19,182 bases of DNA from an uncultured Planctomycetaceae bacterium (GTDB taxonomy: Bacteria; Planctomycetota; Planctomycetia; Pirellulales; Pirellulaceae), in assembly GCA_903927685.1 (NCBI GenBank), contig CAIYOB010000213.1, positions 1 to 19,182 of the forward strand, given 5' to 3'. Below are positions 465 to 16,860 of this stretch, in pieces; the stretch's first letter is position 1; the number at the start of each line of letters is the position of its first letter. The position numbers and the translations under genes were made by a program. The notes under the pieces are model-generated. The model did no database searches. It saw nothing but the letters and a program-made list of their open reading frames with translations, and had not been told where the DNA came from.

Positions 465-1412
465 ATGAGAAGCAAACGTCCCCTCCTCGTCCACTTGATC
501 GCGTTCTTCCTGGCCGCCAGTGCGTTCGCTGCGGACGTCGCCCCGGTCCAGACCGCCAAGACCGTGCGTCTGCTGACCGTGGGCAACAGTTTCTCCCGCA
601 ACGCGACGCGTTTCCTTCCCGACCTGGCGGCCGCGGGCGGGCACACGTTGATCCACCGGCCCATCGTGGTCGGCGGCGCGTCGCTGCAATTGCATGCCGA
701 GAAAGCGCAGCAGCACGAACGGGACGCCCAAGCTGCCGCCGGGCTGTACGCCAATGGCCGCAGCCTGCCGCAGGAGTTGACGGCGGAGCCCTGGGACTTT
801 GTGACCATCCAACAGGCCAGCATCAAGAGCCACGACCTCGGCACGTACCGCCCGTATGCCGGCCAACTCGGCGAACTCGTTCGGAAGTATGCACCGGGCG
901 CAAAGCTGTTGGTGCACGAAACCTGGGCGTACCGCTGCGACGATCCACGGTTTGCCGTCGCGTCGCCGAAGCCCGGCGAACCGGCCACGCAAGAGGCCAT
1001 GTATCAAGGCTTGGCCAACGCCTATCGCACCATCGCCGCGGAACTCGGCGCGCAGCGGATCCCTGTCGGCGACGCCTTCGACCAGGCCGACCACGATCCG
1101 CAGTGGGGCTACCGGCCGGACGCGAAGTTCGAGTTCGGGACCGCACAGCCGCCGGCGCTGCCCGACCAGACGCATTCGCTGCACGTGGGCTGGCGTTGGA
1201 CGCAGCCTCAAGACGGCCCCCCGAAGCTCAGCATGGACGGCCACCACGCCAACACCGCGGGCGAGTACCTGGGGGCGTGCGTGTTCTACGAAGTGCTGTT
1301 CGGGGAAAGCGTCGTAGGCAACGGCTATGTACCGCCGGGCCTCGACCCGGCCTACGCGCGGTTCCTGCAGGAGACGGCCCACGGCGCGGTGACGCACGAA
1401 CTGCGGCCCTGA
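465..1412 (+). CDS. Secreted SGNH/GDSL-type hydrolase, DUF4886-like
   Basis: The protein has 315 residues. An AGGA ribosome-binding site at 451-454 sits 10 bases before the ATG. Residues 1-22 form a Sec signal peptide (charged start, hydrophobic LIAFFLAASAFA, likely cleavage after AFA). The mature part opens with RLLTVGNSFSRN (around residues 35-46), the block I motif of SGNH hydrolases with the nucleophile at Ser42. It ends with DGHHANTAGEYLG, the block V DxxH motif (Asp258 and His261). This pattern matches the DUF4886 branch, which is often found in planctomycete and Bacteroidetes proteins acting on carbohydrate esters. The substrate cannot be read from the sequence. The gene stands alone, 80 bases after the broken propeller gene and convergent with the phosphatase gene. 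The fold is firm; the substrate is unknown. Confidence 0.88.
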   Translation: MRSKRPLLVHLIAFFLAASAFAADVAPVQTAKTVRLLTVGNSFSRNATRFLPDLAAAGGHTLIHRPIVVGGASLQLHAEKAQQHERDAQAAAGLYANGRSLPQELTAEPWDFVTIQQASIKSHDLGTYRPYAGQLGELVRKYAPGAKLLVHETWAYRCDDPRFAVASPKPGEPATQEAMYQGLANAYRTIAAELGAQRIPVGDAFDQADHDPQWGYRPDAKFEFGTAQPPALPDQTHSLHVGWRWTQPQDGPPKLSMDGHHANTAGEYLGACVFYEVLFGESVVGNGYVPPGLDPAYARFLQETAHGAVTHELRP

Positions 1413-13074: not shown

Positions 13075-14472
13075 TCAATTCGTGGGCGCAGTCGAGGCCG
13101 GCATGGCCGCCGTTGCGGGTTCTCGCAGCACGATCGTGAACTTCCAAGGCCCGCCGGGGGCGCGGGCCGGTTCGTCCGTCACTTCCGCGGGCAGCACCTG
13201 CCAGCCGAACTCGGCGACGTCACGCTGCAAGCGACTGGCAAGTTCGTTGGCGCGTCCCACCTGCAGGCACAAGCCGGACACGCGCACCTCGCCGCCCTGC
13301 CCGGCAATCTGCTGAACGACCAGTTCCTCGTGATGATGCGCCGCCAGCGACTCGAGCAGCCGCGAGACCCGCGCTCGGTTCAGCTGGACTTGCGCCCGGA
13401 CGTGCGTCAGGTCCCGTTCGATCGCCAGCGTCACTTTCTCTAATTCCAGCCGGTGTTTCTCCAGCGGCGTGGCCTCCTTCTTCAAATCATCCAGCGTCTG
13501 CTGGGGCTGCTGGGCGCGAGCCTGCTCGCGCGCTAAGTCCGCCAAGAGGCCGCGCTGCCACTGGTAATGCGCGTAGCACCCCAGGGCCGTCAGGGCAGCC
13601 AAGCCGGCGGCGATCGCGCCCCGAGCGGTCGGCGACAGCGGCTGCGGCGCGGGCCGCAGCAGAGGGACCGCCGGCCGCGCGTCGGCCAGCACCGCGGCCC
13701 AGGATTCGAGCCAGCCGCGGAGCGTGCAACCGTCGCCCACGCGCAGCGGCGTCTCGCCCGCCAGCAGGCGCGCAGCGCCGTCTTCCGTGCCGTCCCACAG
13801 CTCGCGTTGCACGCCCGCCGGCGACTCGCGGCGAAACGCCGCAATCCGTTCGGCCAGTCGCCCCGCGGACGTGCTGCGGGGGATGGTCACGACGTCGCCG
13901 GCGCACGCCGGCGGATTCCGCATCGCCCCGCCCGGCGACGCCGCTCCGCGGACGCACACAATCGCTTCGTCCCAGAACTCGACGCGTTCCGTGCCCTCCG
14001 CGGCGGGCAAACCGGCCGGGTGAGCCAATCCCAGCACTCGGCCCCCCAGCATCCGCACGGCGTCTTCGATGCCCGCACGAGCCACGTGCGGCACCTGCGT
14101 CAGCCAGAACCGCCGCTCCGCGCCGCCGCCCGCCAGCGGCACGTAGGCCAGCGAGGTCTCCACCGGACTGACCCCGGTAAACGCCTCGGATTCATATCCC
14201 AGAAACTGCTCCAAGTCGGCCCCGGCCAACCCCGTCAGCGCCTTGGCCGGAACCGCGATCACGTTCGTCCAGAACTCGCTGCTCAGCACCCACACCCGCC
14301 GCGCCCGCCGCCCGTGCAGCCGCAACGCCGCATCCACCAGCGTCGCCGGATCGTCCGCCTGCGGCCGCGGCTGCTCGTACAGCCCCGCCAGCCGGGGCTG
14401 CCCCCGACCCTGGAAATCGGCCCGAATCAGGCGGTGTCGCGTTAACAGAAGGATGGTGAAGGACAGGGTCAT
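13075..14472 (-). CDS. GspL / PilM-PilN-like bitopic platform protein
   Basis: The protein has 465 residues. The N-terminal part (1-270) is cytoplasmic and resembles the PilM/GspL actin-like fold (ALTGLAGADLEQFLGYESEA, GIEDAVRMLGGRVLGLAHPA). One membrane segment follows (about 283-302, RGAIAAGLAALTALGCY), then a long coiled coil (about 303-365). A C-terminal PilN-like ferredoxin domain completes it (about 366-450, VVQQIAGQGGEVRVSGLCLQ). PilM and PilN are separate proteins in type IVa pili, while GspL joins both roles, so this is the GspL layout. It recruits the assembly ATPase to the membrane. The ATG at 14472 lies in a 7-bp repeat unit, with no ribosome-binding site. The precise fold of the N-terminal half is inferred. 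Confidence 0.78.
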   Translation of the reverse strand: MTLSFTILLLTRHRLIRADFQGRGQPRLAGLYEQPRPQADDPATLVDAALRLHGRRARRVWVLSSEFWTNVIAVPAKALTGLAGADLEQFLGYESEAFTGVSPVETSLAYVPLAGGGAERRFWLTQVPHVARAGIEDAVRMLGGRVLGLAHPAGLPAAEGTERVEFWDEAIVCVRGAASPGGAMRNPPACAGDVVTIPRSTSAGRLAERIAAFRRESPAGVQRELWDGTEDGAARLLAGETPLRVGDGCTLRGWLESWAAVLADARPAVPLLRPAPQPLSPTARGAIAAGLAALTALGCYAHYQWQRGLLADLAREQARAQQPQQTLDDLKKEATPLEKHRLELEKVTLAIERDLTHVRAQVQLNRARVSRLLESLAAHHHEELVVQQIAGQGGEVRVSGLCLQVGRANELASRLQRDVAEFGWQVLPAEVTDEPARAPGGPWKFTIVLREPATAAMPASTAPTN

Positions 14473-14520: not shown

Positions 14521-14528
14521 GGGCTGTC

Positions 14529-14565
14529 GCCCCGAAGGGGCCAAACACACCAGCCAAGGGCAACG
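14529..14565. repeat. Degenerate fragment of the hairpin-triplet element
   Basis: GCCCCGAAGGGGC (14529-14541) is identical to the outer palindrome of the element at 15773. After 11 bases it is followed by GCCAAGGGCAACG, which is the left arm and loop of that element's middle palindrome without its right arm. It reads as a decayed or truncated copy. Confidence 0.6.
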
Positions 14566-14618
14566 TTCGTCCGTACCTCATACCGACTCGATACCACGGT
14601 CGGTCGCTCCGCAATCTA

Positions 14619-14810
14619 GCCGCGTAGCGGCGGCAGCGTGTAGCCAGGGGCGTCAGCCCCTGGCCACCCCCGCCATCGCCCCCCTATAGCCCCGGAGGGG
14701 CGACAGGATTGTTCTGAACGACACCTGCCGCCCCTCCGGGGCTGTGCGCGTTCTCCTTCCAACAACCAGGGGCTCACGCCCCTGGCTCGATCCCGCCGTC
14801 CCTACGGGAC
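14619..14810. repeat. Mirror-symmetric hairpin-triplet element, copy 2
   Basis: Six palindromes are arranged around a centre near 14715. On the left are 14619-14631 (GCCGC-GTA-GCGGC), 14644-14663 (CCAGGGGC-GTCA-GCCCCTGG) and 14689-14701 (GCCCC-GGA-GGGGC). On the right, mirrored, are 14730-14742 (GCCCC-TCC-GGGGC), 14766-14785 (CCAGGGGC-TCAC-GCCCCTGG) and 14798-14810 (GTCCC-TAC-GGGAC). Spacers are 12 and 25 on the left, 23 and 12 on the right, with 28 in the centre. It fills the gap between pseudopilin C and the GspL-like gene. The last palindrome overlaps the TAG of pseudopilin C. Confidence 0.8.
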
Positions 14811-15743
14811 TGAAACCAAATCCAAATCGTACACATCACTCCGCTGGACGCGGACAAGGTTGCTTTTCTTCTCCGCGGTGCCGTTTCCGTCCGCGTCCAA
14901 GTACGCCCGCAAGAACCGCGGCCCCGCGGTTGTGGTGAAGGAAAATGTCAGGGACAGGGACTGCGCCGGATCAAGCAACGGCGGAATCGTGTCCGATTTT
15001 CGCGTTTCTTCCGACACGGCTCCGCTGGCGGCATCGAATCGGTATAACTTGACCGTCACTTTGTCCAGCGCGGGCTTCTCCCGTTCGCCATCATTCAACT
15101 CGTACACGTGTCCGCTCACGTCGATCTGGAGATTGCCGGCCAAGCGTACCTCCAAATCCGCATCGTACCCCACACCGCCGATTGCGTTGTCTGCTCCCAG
15201 GCTGCCGACGCGGTCGATCTCGGCGCCCACGGCCGCGACATCCCCTTCCGAGTCCAGCAGCACCAGCGGATTTCCCCACCCGTCGCGGATCTCCCCCATG
15301 CCGATGGGCAGTCGCAGGTAGGGACTGCGCCATCCGCCAGGAACGAGCACCTCCGAATCAGACGCTGGGGAGCGGATGTCAAACAGCGGCAAGTCGGCAA
15401 CGCCATTCAGGTCTTTGTCGTTGTTCCACAGCTCGGCGAGTTGGATGCCCGGGTCAGCGCCATAGGCGCGCGGCAGCCGCCCCATGTCCGCTACGAAGCC
15501 GCTGATCAGCGGTGTGCCGTCCGGCTGCCGCATGTCCGGGCTGCCCAGGATCGCCTCCTCGATATTGGTCAGCGTCCGTTGCGTGGCCTCGTACCGCGCC
15601 TGATCGGCGACGGGCTCCAGCGACTTGACCGCGACCAGGGCCAGCACGGCCAGGATGCTAAGGACGACCACCAACTCCAGAAGCGTCAGGCCGTGCGCAA
15701 GATGGTCGCGACAGTTCGACCGTCCCCGCGTGGCCCGACACAC
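14802..15743 (-). CDS. Type II pseudopilin C with extended C-terminal domain
   Basis: The GTG at 15743 gives 313 residues with an 18-residue leader ending AHG, then LTLLELVVVLSILAVLALVA. This is a canonical class III prepilin cleavage site with Glu+5. The open frame extends upstream of this GTG only through palindromic repeat DNA, so longer starts were rejected. The globular part has a GspG-like core (WRSPYLRL, then DGWGNPLVLLDSEGD). Beyond about residue 205 it has an added beta-rich region (VSGHVYELNDGE, VTVKLYRFDAASGAV, FLRAYLDADGNGTAE). Two Asp-rich loops, NNDKDLNGVAD and DADGNGTAE, resemble EF-hand or dockerin calcium loops. No clear ribosome-binding site is visible. It is flanked on both sides by copies of the hairpin-triplet element. 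The pseudopilin call is firm; its place in the filament is unknown. Confidence 0.82.
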   Translation of the reverse strand: MCRATRGRSNCRDHLAHGLTLLELVVVLSILAVLALVAVKSLEPVADQARYEATQRTLTNIEEAILGSPDMRQPDGTPLISGFVADMGRLPRAYGADPGIQLAELWNNDKDLNGVADLPLFDIRSPASDSEVLVPGGWRSPYLRLPIGMGEIRDGWGNPLVLLDSEGDVAAVGAEIDRVGSLGADNAIGGVGYDADLEVRLAGNLQIDVSGHVYELNDGEREKPALDKVTVKLYRFDAASGAVSEETRKSDTIPPLLDPAQSLSLTFSFTTTAGPRFLRAYLDADGNGTAEKKSNLVRVQRSDVYDLDLVSVP

Positions 15744-15772
15744 CCGCTCGATTGTCGCGTCTTTCTCTTCTC

Positions 15773-15968
15773 GCCCCGAAGGGGCAGCGACATACCAGCC
15801 CAGGGCAACGCCCTGGGTAGGGTCCGCCACACGTTGACCAAGCCCTGAAGGGGCGGCACAAACGGCGGATGCGGCAAGACCGTTGTGCCCTTTCAGGGCG
15901 ACGGAATAGCGCCGGATGACGAACCCAGGGCGTTGCCCTGGGCTGATCTGTTTCGGCCCCTTCGGGGC
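15773..15968. repeat. Mirror-symmetric hairpin-triplet element, copy 1
   Basis: Six palindromes are exactly symmetric about 15870.5. The outer pair is GCCCC-GAA-GGGGC (15773-15785) and its mirror (15956-15968). The middle pair is CCCAGGGC-AAC-GCCCTGGG (15799-15817) and its mirror (15924-15942). The inner pair is GCCCT-GAA-GGGGC (15842-15854) and GCCCT-TTC-AGGGC (15887-15899). The palindromes match between halves, but the spacers (13 and 24 bases) do not, so spacing is conserved without sequence. This and flanking sequence fill the 352-base gap between pseudopilins B1 and C. Nothing else was recognised in that gap. Confidence 0.88.
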
Positions 15969-16095
15969 GGGAAAACGTCGGTTCTTCCTCGTCGCCCATC
16001 CGCACATGGCCACCCCATGACGCCCGAACAACGAAACACCGGGGACAATGGTCCGTCGCTCGTGCTGCGGACCTTCGCCGGCCGCCGGATTTGGC

Positions 16096-16734
16096 TCACC
16101 GCAACGTGAACGCGACATACAGGTCGTCTCCGTCATTGACATCCGTCAAGTTCGCGGACAACGTCGTAGGATTGATGTCAATCCGGCCGTTCGGGCCCGC
16201 GGATACGACTCGGACATCTTGAACACCCGGCAGTCCCAACGTCGGATTCTGCAGCACGACAGGATTGCCCCAGGCGTCCAGAGCCGCCTGGTCGGGATCG
16301 GCACCGGCGACTCCATAGTCCGGCGTGAAGCCGGCAGCCGAATCGAGCCTGTACCTTCCCGTAGCCTGACTCAAGTAGGGTCCGCGCCAGCCAACTTGGT
16401 AGTTGGGGTCGAACGACGATACGGCTTCATACCCGGCGGGAACGACATCCCAGGTCGCCGGGTTCACGAACAGAAAGACCACCTGCGGACCCGGCTCACG
16501 ACCGGTCGTATCGTCGTCCTCGCGGCGCGGCAACCGTTTCGGCGCATCCATCCAATACTGAATCACCGCGTCGCGGACATTGGCCAGCGTCTGTCGGGTC
16601 GCCGTGTCCTCCGCCTGCGACCGCGTGCCGCTGACCAGCGGAACGACGATGCCGGCCAGCAGTACCAATACGAACAGCACGACGATCAGTTCCAACAAAG
16701 TCAGCGCCGATCTTCGACGAACGCATTTCGACAC
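16096..16734 (-). CDS. Type II pseudopilin B1 (GspG-like core, Ala at -1)
   Basis: The GTG at 16734 is preceded by GGGAG 7 bases upstream and gives 212 residues. The leader MSKCVRRRSA precedes LTLLELIVVLFVLVLLAGIV, so the residue before the cleavage point is Ala instead of the usual Gly; Glu+5 is kept. The globular part shows VVFLFVNPATW, VGWRGPYLSQATGRYRLD, LDAWGNPVVLQ and VVSAGPNGRIDINP. 'GPYL...DAWGNP' is the GspG-like core, and Asp-rich ends such as NDGDDLY could bind calcium. It is a paralogue of B2 (18103-18765), sharing nearly every motif in the same order. An intrinsic terminator lies upstream, after A1, so B1 may be expressed by read-through. Class is firm; processing efficiency is uncertain. 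Confidence 0.85.
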   Translation of the reverse strand: MSKCVRRRSALTLLELIVVLFVLVLLAGIVVPLVSGTRSQAEDTATRQTLANVRDAVIQYWMDAPKRLPRREDDDTTGREPGPQVVFLFVNPATWDVVPAGYEAVSSFDPNYQVGWRGPYLSQATGRYRLDSAAGFTPDYGVAGADPDQAALDAWGNPVVLQNPTLGLPGVQDVRVVSAGPNGRIDINPTTLSANLTDVNDGDDLYVAFTLR

Positions 16735-16860
16735 GTTGCTGCTCCCACCAACCCGCTGACCGCCGAACTCACGCCTTTGACGCTGCGTTATGGCGACTGC
16801 ACATGGTTTCTTGGAGATCGGGTGTCCCCGCCCGATGTCCGCACCCGACAAACGAAACAC

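Follow-up and report, generated by a model that had tools for sequence, protein, structure and literature searches.

IS200/IS605 transposition takes place on the lagging-strand template, and the ends of IS608 are subterminal with one hairpin each. Among the Y1 transposases of the HUH type, PMC6006769 distinguishes the class of RAYT (REP-associated tyrosine transposase) or TnpAREP proteins, which carry the signature Y---NP, from a subclass 1.2 with the motifs DH[IV]H, WQ and Y---Q--HH, the latter being described there as lacking both REPs (repetitive extragenic palindromes) and typical terminal structures. The Acido-Lenti-1 motif (RF01687), in turn, is tabulated as RNA ('y') in Weinberg et al. 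2010 and was proposed in 2026 as a possible regulator in Tannerella (PMC13298647). Here we analysed two hairpin elements, copy 1 (14619-14810, 192 nt) and copy 2 (15773-15968, 196 nt), in a 19,182-nt stretch of DNA from an uncultured Planctomycetaceae bacterium (GCA_903927685.1, contig CAIYOB010000213.1, forward strand), referred to below as the window. The two copies are very likely non-autonomous, transposase-less derivatives, similar to MITEs (miniature inverted-repeat transposable elements) or REPINs (inverted REP doublets), of elements in which a subclass 1.2 transposase gene (tnpA) is enclosed by ends of three hairpins each; movement was not observed. Both copies have inverted ends around centres of 28 and 32 nt and contain no transposase gene, and their ends are shared with an autonomous element that carries tnpA in other genomes.

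Architecture of the two elements

Both elements follow the order A-B-C-centre-C'-B'-A', in which the 13-nt hairpins A and C flank a hairpin B of 19-22 nt. Each half thus consists of A (13 nt), a spacer of 12-13 nt, B (19-22 nt), a spacer of 23-25 nt and C (13 nt). The spacers measure 12/25/28/23/12 nt in copy 1, if B is taken as its 20-nt core, and 13/24/32/24/13 nt in copy 2. The individual parts are as follows:

14619-14631, plus strand: copy 1 hairpin A, which forms the left outer end and has a GTA loop
14643-14664, plus strand: copy 1 hairpin B, GTAG directly before it; 20-nt core 14644-14663
14689-14701, plus strand: copy 1 hairpin C, GGA loop
14702-14729: copy 1 centre, 28 nt; the position held by the transposase gene in autonomous relatives
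14730-14742, minus strand: copy 1 hairpin C', with GGA as the loop on this strand
14766-14785, minus strand: copy 1 hairpin B'
14798-14810, minus strand: copy 1 hairpin A', the right outer end, with GTA as the loop on this strand
15773-15785, plus strand: copy 2 hairpin A, which forms the left outer end and has a GAA loop
15799-15817, plus strand: copy 2 hairpin B, AAC loop
15842-15854, plus strand: copy 2 hairpin C, GAA loop, closing pair T.G
15855-15886: copy 2 centre, 32 nt
15887-15899, minus strand: copy 2 hairpin C', with GAA as the loop on this strand, closing pair T-A
15924-15942, minus strand: copy 2 hairpin B'
15956-15968, minus strand: copy 2 hairpin A', the right outer end, with GAA as the loop on this strand
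14528-14587, plus strand: possible decayed third half-element, A intact and B degenerate; 13.4 bits (E 0.05) with the covariance model R1 described below, not significant alone

Within the possible third half, 21 nt (14545-14565) are 90% identical to copy 2.

GNA triloops are unusually stable in DNA. A GNA loop is present on the inward-reading strand of all eight 13-nt hairpins (GTA, GGA, GGA, GTA, then four times GAA), six of which are closed by a C-G pair, the exceptions being C (T.G) and C' (T-A) of copy 2. Folding of the elements as single-stranded DNA resulted in z-scores of -7.58 and -10.56, and since none of 200 shuffles folded equally well, the hairpins are not a product of chance. According to the B loop, the window holds two subfamilies, GTSA (copy 1) and AAC (copy 2). 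The mirrored three-palindrome architecture had already been recognised at these places in a first-pass annotation made from the letters alone and was, apart from small corrections, recovered when the letters were re-read. Hereby it is copy 2, not copy 1 (25 versus 23 nt), that is symmetric to the base; the GNA loops on the inward strand are indeed universal, although they belong to eight and not six short palindromes, and the C-G closing pair had been assigned to only four of them.

Transposase genes with three-hairpin ends

Genes matching Y1_Tnp (PF01797) are present in nine of 16 GspE-related genomes, and in one of these, G001, the Y1 gene on contig 771 is surrounded by matches to RF01687. 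The encoded protein contains DHVH together with YIANQAEHH, which corresponds to the Y---Q--HH signature. The proteins found beside elements generally match the subclass 1.2 motifs DH[IV]H, WQ and Y---Q--HH, with NHVH or NHIH in a few members, and in all six proteins that were aligned H54 and H56 (the HUH motif), Y114, Q118, H121 and H122 are invariant. In line with this assignment, the NCBIfam model transpos_IS200 passes in three of three proteins, while REP_Tyr_transpos stays below its cut-off in one and is absent in two, and the sequence matches in the PDB are transposases of the IS200/IS605 type, including ISHp608 TnpA. A profile built from the six proteins matches 46 of 199 genomes from the phylum of G001 (123 matches, E <= 1e-15). 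On contig 771 of G001, the transposase gene and three element copies (L093, 1109-2408) lie between open reading frames (ORFs) of a putative Cas7/Csd2 and a putative Cas4, recognised by eye as parts of a type I-C CRISPR locus.

To locate hairpins independently of any model, we used the better-scoring 90 of the 123 matches and five genes from the Y1_Tnp search (95 tnpA loci in all). At least two strict hairpins occur within 150 bp on both sides of the gene in 58 of 94 loci, compared to 0/82, 0/82 and 0/81 for control windows displaced by 600, 800 and 1000 bp in the same loci, and to none of 15 other Y1 genes. Strict A-B-C triplets (59 on 54 sides) were found in 38 of the 95 loci, with gaps that are mostly 12 nt between A and B and 22-24 nt between B and C, whatever the letters of the stems; elsewhere, nine were found in 157 kb of distal locus parts and 12 in 1.22 Mb (L001-L080, both strands). 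The loop of these tnpA-side triplets is GNA in 47/59 A and 44/59 C hairpins.

The covariance model R1 was derived from 39 halves, namely 32 tnpA flanks, six others and one half from the window (the left half of copy 1). It detects all four window halves with 75.8, 69.7, 52.3 and 42.6 bits (E 3.7e-16 to 1.2e-8) and yields 237 matches over 90 tnpA loci. Inward-facing R1 ends adjoin tnpA on both sides in 60/90 loci and on at least one side in 82/90, and the median distances to the gene on its two sides are 18 and 16 nt; the sides that carry R1 ends face inward in 142 cases and outward in seven. Leaving out the 21 loci that supplied rows to R1, the corresponding values are 45/69 and 61/69; these 69 include L157, which holds the same gene as the row-supplying L093 and scored on neither side. 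No R1 match was found in 17 loci of other Y1 genes. Given inward ends that flank tnpA and their absence at other Y1 genes, the autonomous unit is A-B-C-tnpA-C'-B'-A', with a length of about 0.65-0.7 kb.

The window elements have the ends of such units, with 28-32 nt in place of tnpA. Hairpin B of copy 1 recurs with the same 22 letters at the flank of the G001 transposase gene (L093, 1133-1154), and B of copy 2 has an identical stem and loop beside the transposase genes of L164, L165 and L167. On the TnpA tree, the B-loop type clusters (14 changes versus a shuffled mean of 20.4; 0/200 as low), as expected if enzyme and ends co-evolve, although near relatives would likewise cause clustering. In L158, L160, L177, L191 and L222, end units form tandem arrays beside tnpA (period 72 in L177, 128 in L158), which are possibly a product of amplification.

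Covariation was evaluated in alignment A3, comprising 32 halves from the window, G001 and G015 that were picked by Rfam matches or homology. Its stem cells are paired at 98.8% versus 84.7% after shuffling, and at 35-52% when the partners are slid; the covariation score is 0.356 versus 0.089 in shuffled alignments, none of 500 being as high. This choice of rows may favour A and B; only the C helix is independent of it, and here changes on both sides are seen in two of five pairs. Covariation in a further alignment, A4, was dropped as evidence, since it is biased by the selection of rows for perfect stems. The best-fixed unpaired letters in A3 are TAG before B and G-purine-C/A after C. TAG precedes B in 29/32 rows of A3 and 31/39 of A4; the full GTAG is found in 21/32 and 8/39, and otherwise mostly ATAG or TTAG.

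In the copies of G015, identity amounts to 0.86 for A, 0.87 for the A-B spacer, 0.93 for B and 0.95 for C, while the B-C spacer is near random (mean 0.32 versus 0.26 for random sequence) at a length kept at 19-21 nt (L117-L153). Near-random spacers of fixed length led us to consider a model in which the B-C spacer is host DNA caught between independently inserted hairpins. This model was set aside on two grounds: the two autonomous units L232 and L238 likewise differ in this spacer although their hairpins and their genes are similar, and for REP dimers, too, spacers that vary in sequence at a constant length are reported (PMC3733652 and PMC8266576).

Across the 199 genomes, 42 hold both tnpA and element, four tnpA only, 13 the element only and 140 neither (Fisher p 7e-27, a statistic that ignores kinship between genomes). 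This search with R1 matched 55 genomes and used stricter filters, 22 candidates being evaluated in each genome. When the 14 genomes that supplied R1 rows are left out, the table reads 28/4/13/140 (p 4e-19). Dispersed halves outnumber the transposase genes, with at least 101 versus four in G015, at least 46 versus one in G200, at least 43 versus two in G184 and at least 21 versus one in G120. Beyond the planctomycetes, the gene is found in seven of 26 further genomes (16 matches), including metagenome-assembled genomes (MAGs) labelled lentisphaere and verrucomicrobial, and R1 matches 12 of the 16 loci, though none of the 13 loci scanned with RF01687 attains the gathering score of that family. 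Among the halves listed (44/46 in G200, 33/43 in G184, 58/101 in G015), those of G200 form 17 outward-facing pairs at distances of up to 500 bp, eight of them separated by 39-40 nt, and no inward pair; inward pairs make up 8/10 in G184 and 15/15 in G015.

Several expectations of the first-pass annotation, which had named covariation, a covariance search of planctomycete genomes and a co-occurring RAYT/Y1 gene as informative, can be compared with these data. Covariation is strong in A3, where the expectation was controlled by partner sliding and shuffling only. The covariance search did recover further copies, using 39 halves rather than the two copies proposed, and a Y1 gene with ends on both sides does co-occur in other genomes, as a member of subclass 1.2 and not as a RAYT. 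Further copies with the same spacing, whose absence would have spoken against the proposal, exist in dispersed form in the other genomes examined.

Mobility, operon setting and alternative explanations

In other genomes, the boundaries at hairpin A are exact or nearly exact. The units L232 and L238, from different genomes, resemble each other over the whole stretch bounded by A and A'; the homology stops at the A hairpins, and the outer sequences differ. Furthermore, a segment of about 1.04 kb in G063, which contains tnpA together with tandem end units, corresponds to 5 bp in its congener G150, while G102 carries a different element of the family at the same place. The same intergenic gap (L158, L181, L249) thus holds two different subclass 1.2 elements in G063 and G102 and is empty in G150; it is possibly a preferred site. 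The empty-site alleles suggested by the first-pass annotation were hence found at nucleotide level for a tnpA element, and for the window as gaps compared at operon level.

The window elements are located in gaps between minus-strand genes of an operon resembling type II secretion systems (T2SS) and type IV pili. Secretin, T2SSF and T2SSE genes of this operon are named by Pfam; the pseudopilin and GspL-like names are taken from gene order and tblastn. The adjacent genes are:

13075-14472, minus strand: gene at the GspL-like position, downstream of copy 1; named by its place in the operon, without a match in Pfam
14802-15695, minus strand: pseudopilin-like gene lying between copy 1 and copy 2; no match in Pfam, start approximate
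16096-16800, minus strand: pseudopilin-like gene upstream of copy 2; start approximate

The gaps that hold the elements measure 400 and 329 bp. Five relatives, one of which (L004) is labelled Rhodospirillaceae, share the gene order; their corresponding gaps are 7-116 and -1 to 33 bp and contain no strict hairpins. The elements are thus missing from the same operon place, in a comparison at operon level that is not nucleotide-exact. By the GspE-like protein, the nearest genomes are L001 (uncultured Planctomycetaceae MAG, 67% identity), L003 (66%) and L002 (58%). The pseudopilin frame is open upstream through copy 2 (14802-16142, a 446-aa ORF), so that an automatic gene caller may take copy 2 for part of the coding sequence. 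A gene for a DUF4886 protein (465-1412, plus strand) adjoins the operon.

A mechanism in which the enzyme acts in trans is suggested for the window elements by the lack of a transposase in the window. A TnpA encoded elsewhere in the host genome would bind the folded, single-stranded A-B-C ends and would cut and rejoin one strand, perhaps on the lagging-strand template. The NTAG before B may serve as a guide that chooses the cut by base pairing, by analogy to GTAG in REPs. By analogy to IS200/IS605 and REPs (PMC8266576), TnpA would mobilise its own tnpA unit or, acting in trans, one of the short units, and two subfamilies, with GTSA and AAC as B loops, would have landed in gaps between co-transcribed T2SS/pilus genes. 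As the two copies belong to two subfamilies with different tnpA-side B matches, the host is predicted to have two cognate enzymes, one for ends with B = CCAGGGGC-GTSA-GCCCCTGG and one for ends with B = CCCAGGGC-AAC-GCCCTGGG.

A number of observations weigh against an origin of the elements from tnpA units. There is no tnpA within the 19,182 nt of the window, and the nearest relatives G002, G003 and G009 have no subclass 1.2 gene and two, one and zero RF01687 matches, respectively. Eight of 90 tnpA loci have no adjacent R1 end, among them L157, where complete elements lie slightly further off, and the two tnpA genes found in G001 are flanked by subfamilies other than those of most dispersed copies. 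At the cut used, 13/199 genomes have the element only and 4/199 tnpA only, part of which may be explained by incomplete genomes. The junction at the empty site is clean on the right, but on the left it carries about 74 bp outside the hairpins. The extra DNA in the window gaps exceeds the length of the elements themselves. Neither G001 nor G015 yielded near-identical copies whose flanks clearly differ. Here, copies that share inner spacers nearly always share their outer flanks too and thus represent larger duplications: of the pairs with a spacer identity of at least 0.7, 24/30 in G015 and 9/16 in G001 share the 15-nt outer flank at 0.6 or more. Inspected by eye, five of the six exceptions in G015 are due to a one-base shift of the flank and one is borderline, and the seven in G001 are cut by contig ends. 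A search within the genus of G015 returned G015 alone.

Could the halves instead be Acido-Lenti-1 small RNAs, or cis elements acting in a transcript? RF01687 matches both outer 46-nt ends of copy 1 (14618-14663 and 14766-14811; 47.1 and 44.5 bits) above its gathering score of 37 bits, the literature cited above lists the motif as RNA or suggests regulation in Tannerella, and the elements lie within an apparently co-transcribed operon. Copy 2, on the other hand, has no match at the gathering score in the Rfam scan of the window. In five of the 16 GspE-related genomes RF01687 matches are found, with at least 20 in G001 and at least 65 in G015 (lower bounds, 150 candidates being scored per genome), often as inverted pairs. 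Of the 90 planctomycete tnpA loci, 80 were scanned with RF01687, and 29 of these reach its gathering score, with 74 matches in total; the motif reads inward to tnpA from both sides, hence from opposite strands. The model covers A and B only and omits C, which is equally conserved. A DNA element would agree with the tandem arrays and with the exact boundaries at DNA level. An RNA function, the second option of the first-pass annotation, is therefore very improbable and unsupported as principal explanation, even though Rfam files A and B as RNA; the entry, which calls part of the elements a small RNA, is probably mislabelled. The sole other Rfam match in the scanned tnpA loci is a ZMP/ZTP riboswitch (L212, 2445-2535, 51 bits) near the gene.

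An equally small chance is left for ordinary REPINs, in which a class 2 TnpAREP would move doublets of the canonical REP type. Such an origin would account for the inverted pairs, the few transposase genes relative to many copies and the (G/A/T)TAG 5' of B, but not for three hairpins per end instead of one. On the basis of the signature Y---Q--HH rather than Y---NP, of the NCBIfam models and of the other Y1 loci without R1 matches, a canonical class 2 RAYT was dropped as cognate enzyme. The REP-like element moved by a Y1/HUH transposase that the first-pass annotation had put forward is hence well supported in general, with a transposase of another class than RAYT. Still less credible is the view that both copies are resident elements of the operon, once mobile and since retained because they serve the host, for example by protecting or ending the mRNA between operon genes, while no transposase acts on them at present. 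The 86-95% identity of the G015 hairpins next to a near-random B-C spacer, the failure to see recent whole-unit transposition in G015 and the position of both window copies in gaps of one operon would agree with it. However, tnpA and elements co-occur by genome, selection for mobility would preserve the hairpins just as well, and the elements are not needed in the operon, since five relatives lack them there.

Comparison with known systems

Extending the derivation of the two copies from tnpA units to the whole family, we favour, with more reserve, the view that Acido-Lenti-1 is the DNA end of a widespread single-strand mobile system moved by subclass 1.2 HUH transposases and not an RNA family. 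Recognition would depend chiefly on shape and on the fixed spacing A-12-B-22-C, with little fixed sequence beyond NTAG and GNA. If true, this would be a further Y1 system beside IS200/IS605 and RAYT/REPIN, spread across planctomycetes, lentisphaeres and verrucomicrobia, and would supply a substrate for a transposase subclass described as lacking associated repeats (PMC6006769). An orphan Rfam 'RNA' family, to which genome papers continue to ascribe a regulatory role, would find its explanation, and the case would serve as a warning that covariation can also single out DNA elements, some of which now pass as high-copy 'structured RNAs'. In addition, a natural series of DNA ends in which the stem letters are free while shape and spacing are kept would permit a direct test of how HUH enzymes read single-stranded DNA structure. 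In the open-access literature (ISfinder and supplementary files lay outside the search), no paper that links Acido-Lenti-1 to a transposase was found.

RF01687 has the same A and B hairpins at the same spacing as the ends of copy 1; in Rfam it is a small RNA of 46 nt, whereas here it is the outer part of a three-hairpin DNA end of about 85 nt, mirrored around tnpA or a short centre. With the subclass 1.2 TnpA of PMC6006769 the protein family beside the elements shares the motifs, a length of about 150 aa and the low copy number. It occurs here in 46/199 genomes, and most of the fetched genes have three-hairpin ends. Class 3 TnpA, reported in the same source from Planctomycetes and Acidobacteria with high-copy 'atypical secondary structures' without GTAG, differs by Y----Q and a CnGA foot, and subclass 2.6, for which 'atypical secondary structures' are mentioned as well, by Y---NP; neither fits the proteins found here. 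REPs, BIMEs (bacterial interspersed mosaic elements) and REPINs with their RAYTs (PMC3733652 and PMC8266576) resemble the present elements in the palindromes with their TAG-type tetranucleotide, the inverted pairs, the tandem clusters and the small number of transposase genes relative to dispersed copies; unlike them, the elements described here go with another transposase class, have three hairpins per end and seem to lack a fixed GT[AG]G. With IS200/IS605, finally, they share a Y1 HUH transposase and hairpins at both ends, but each end carries three hairpins, in near-mirror order, in place of a single one.
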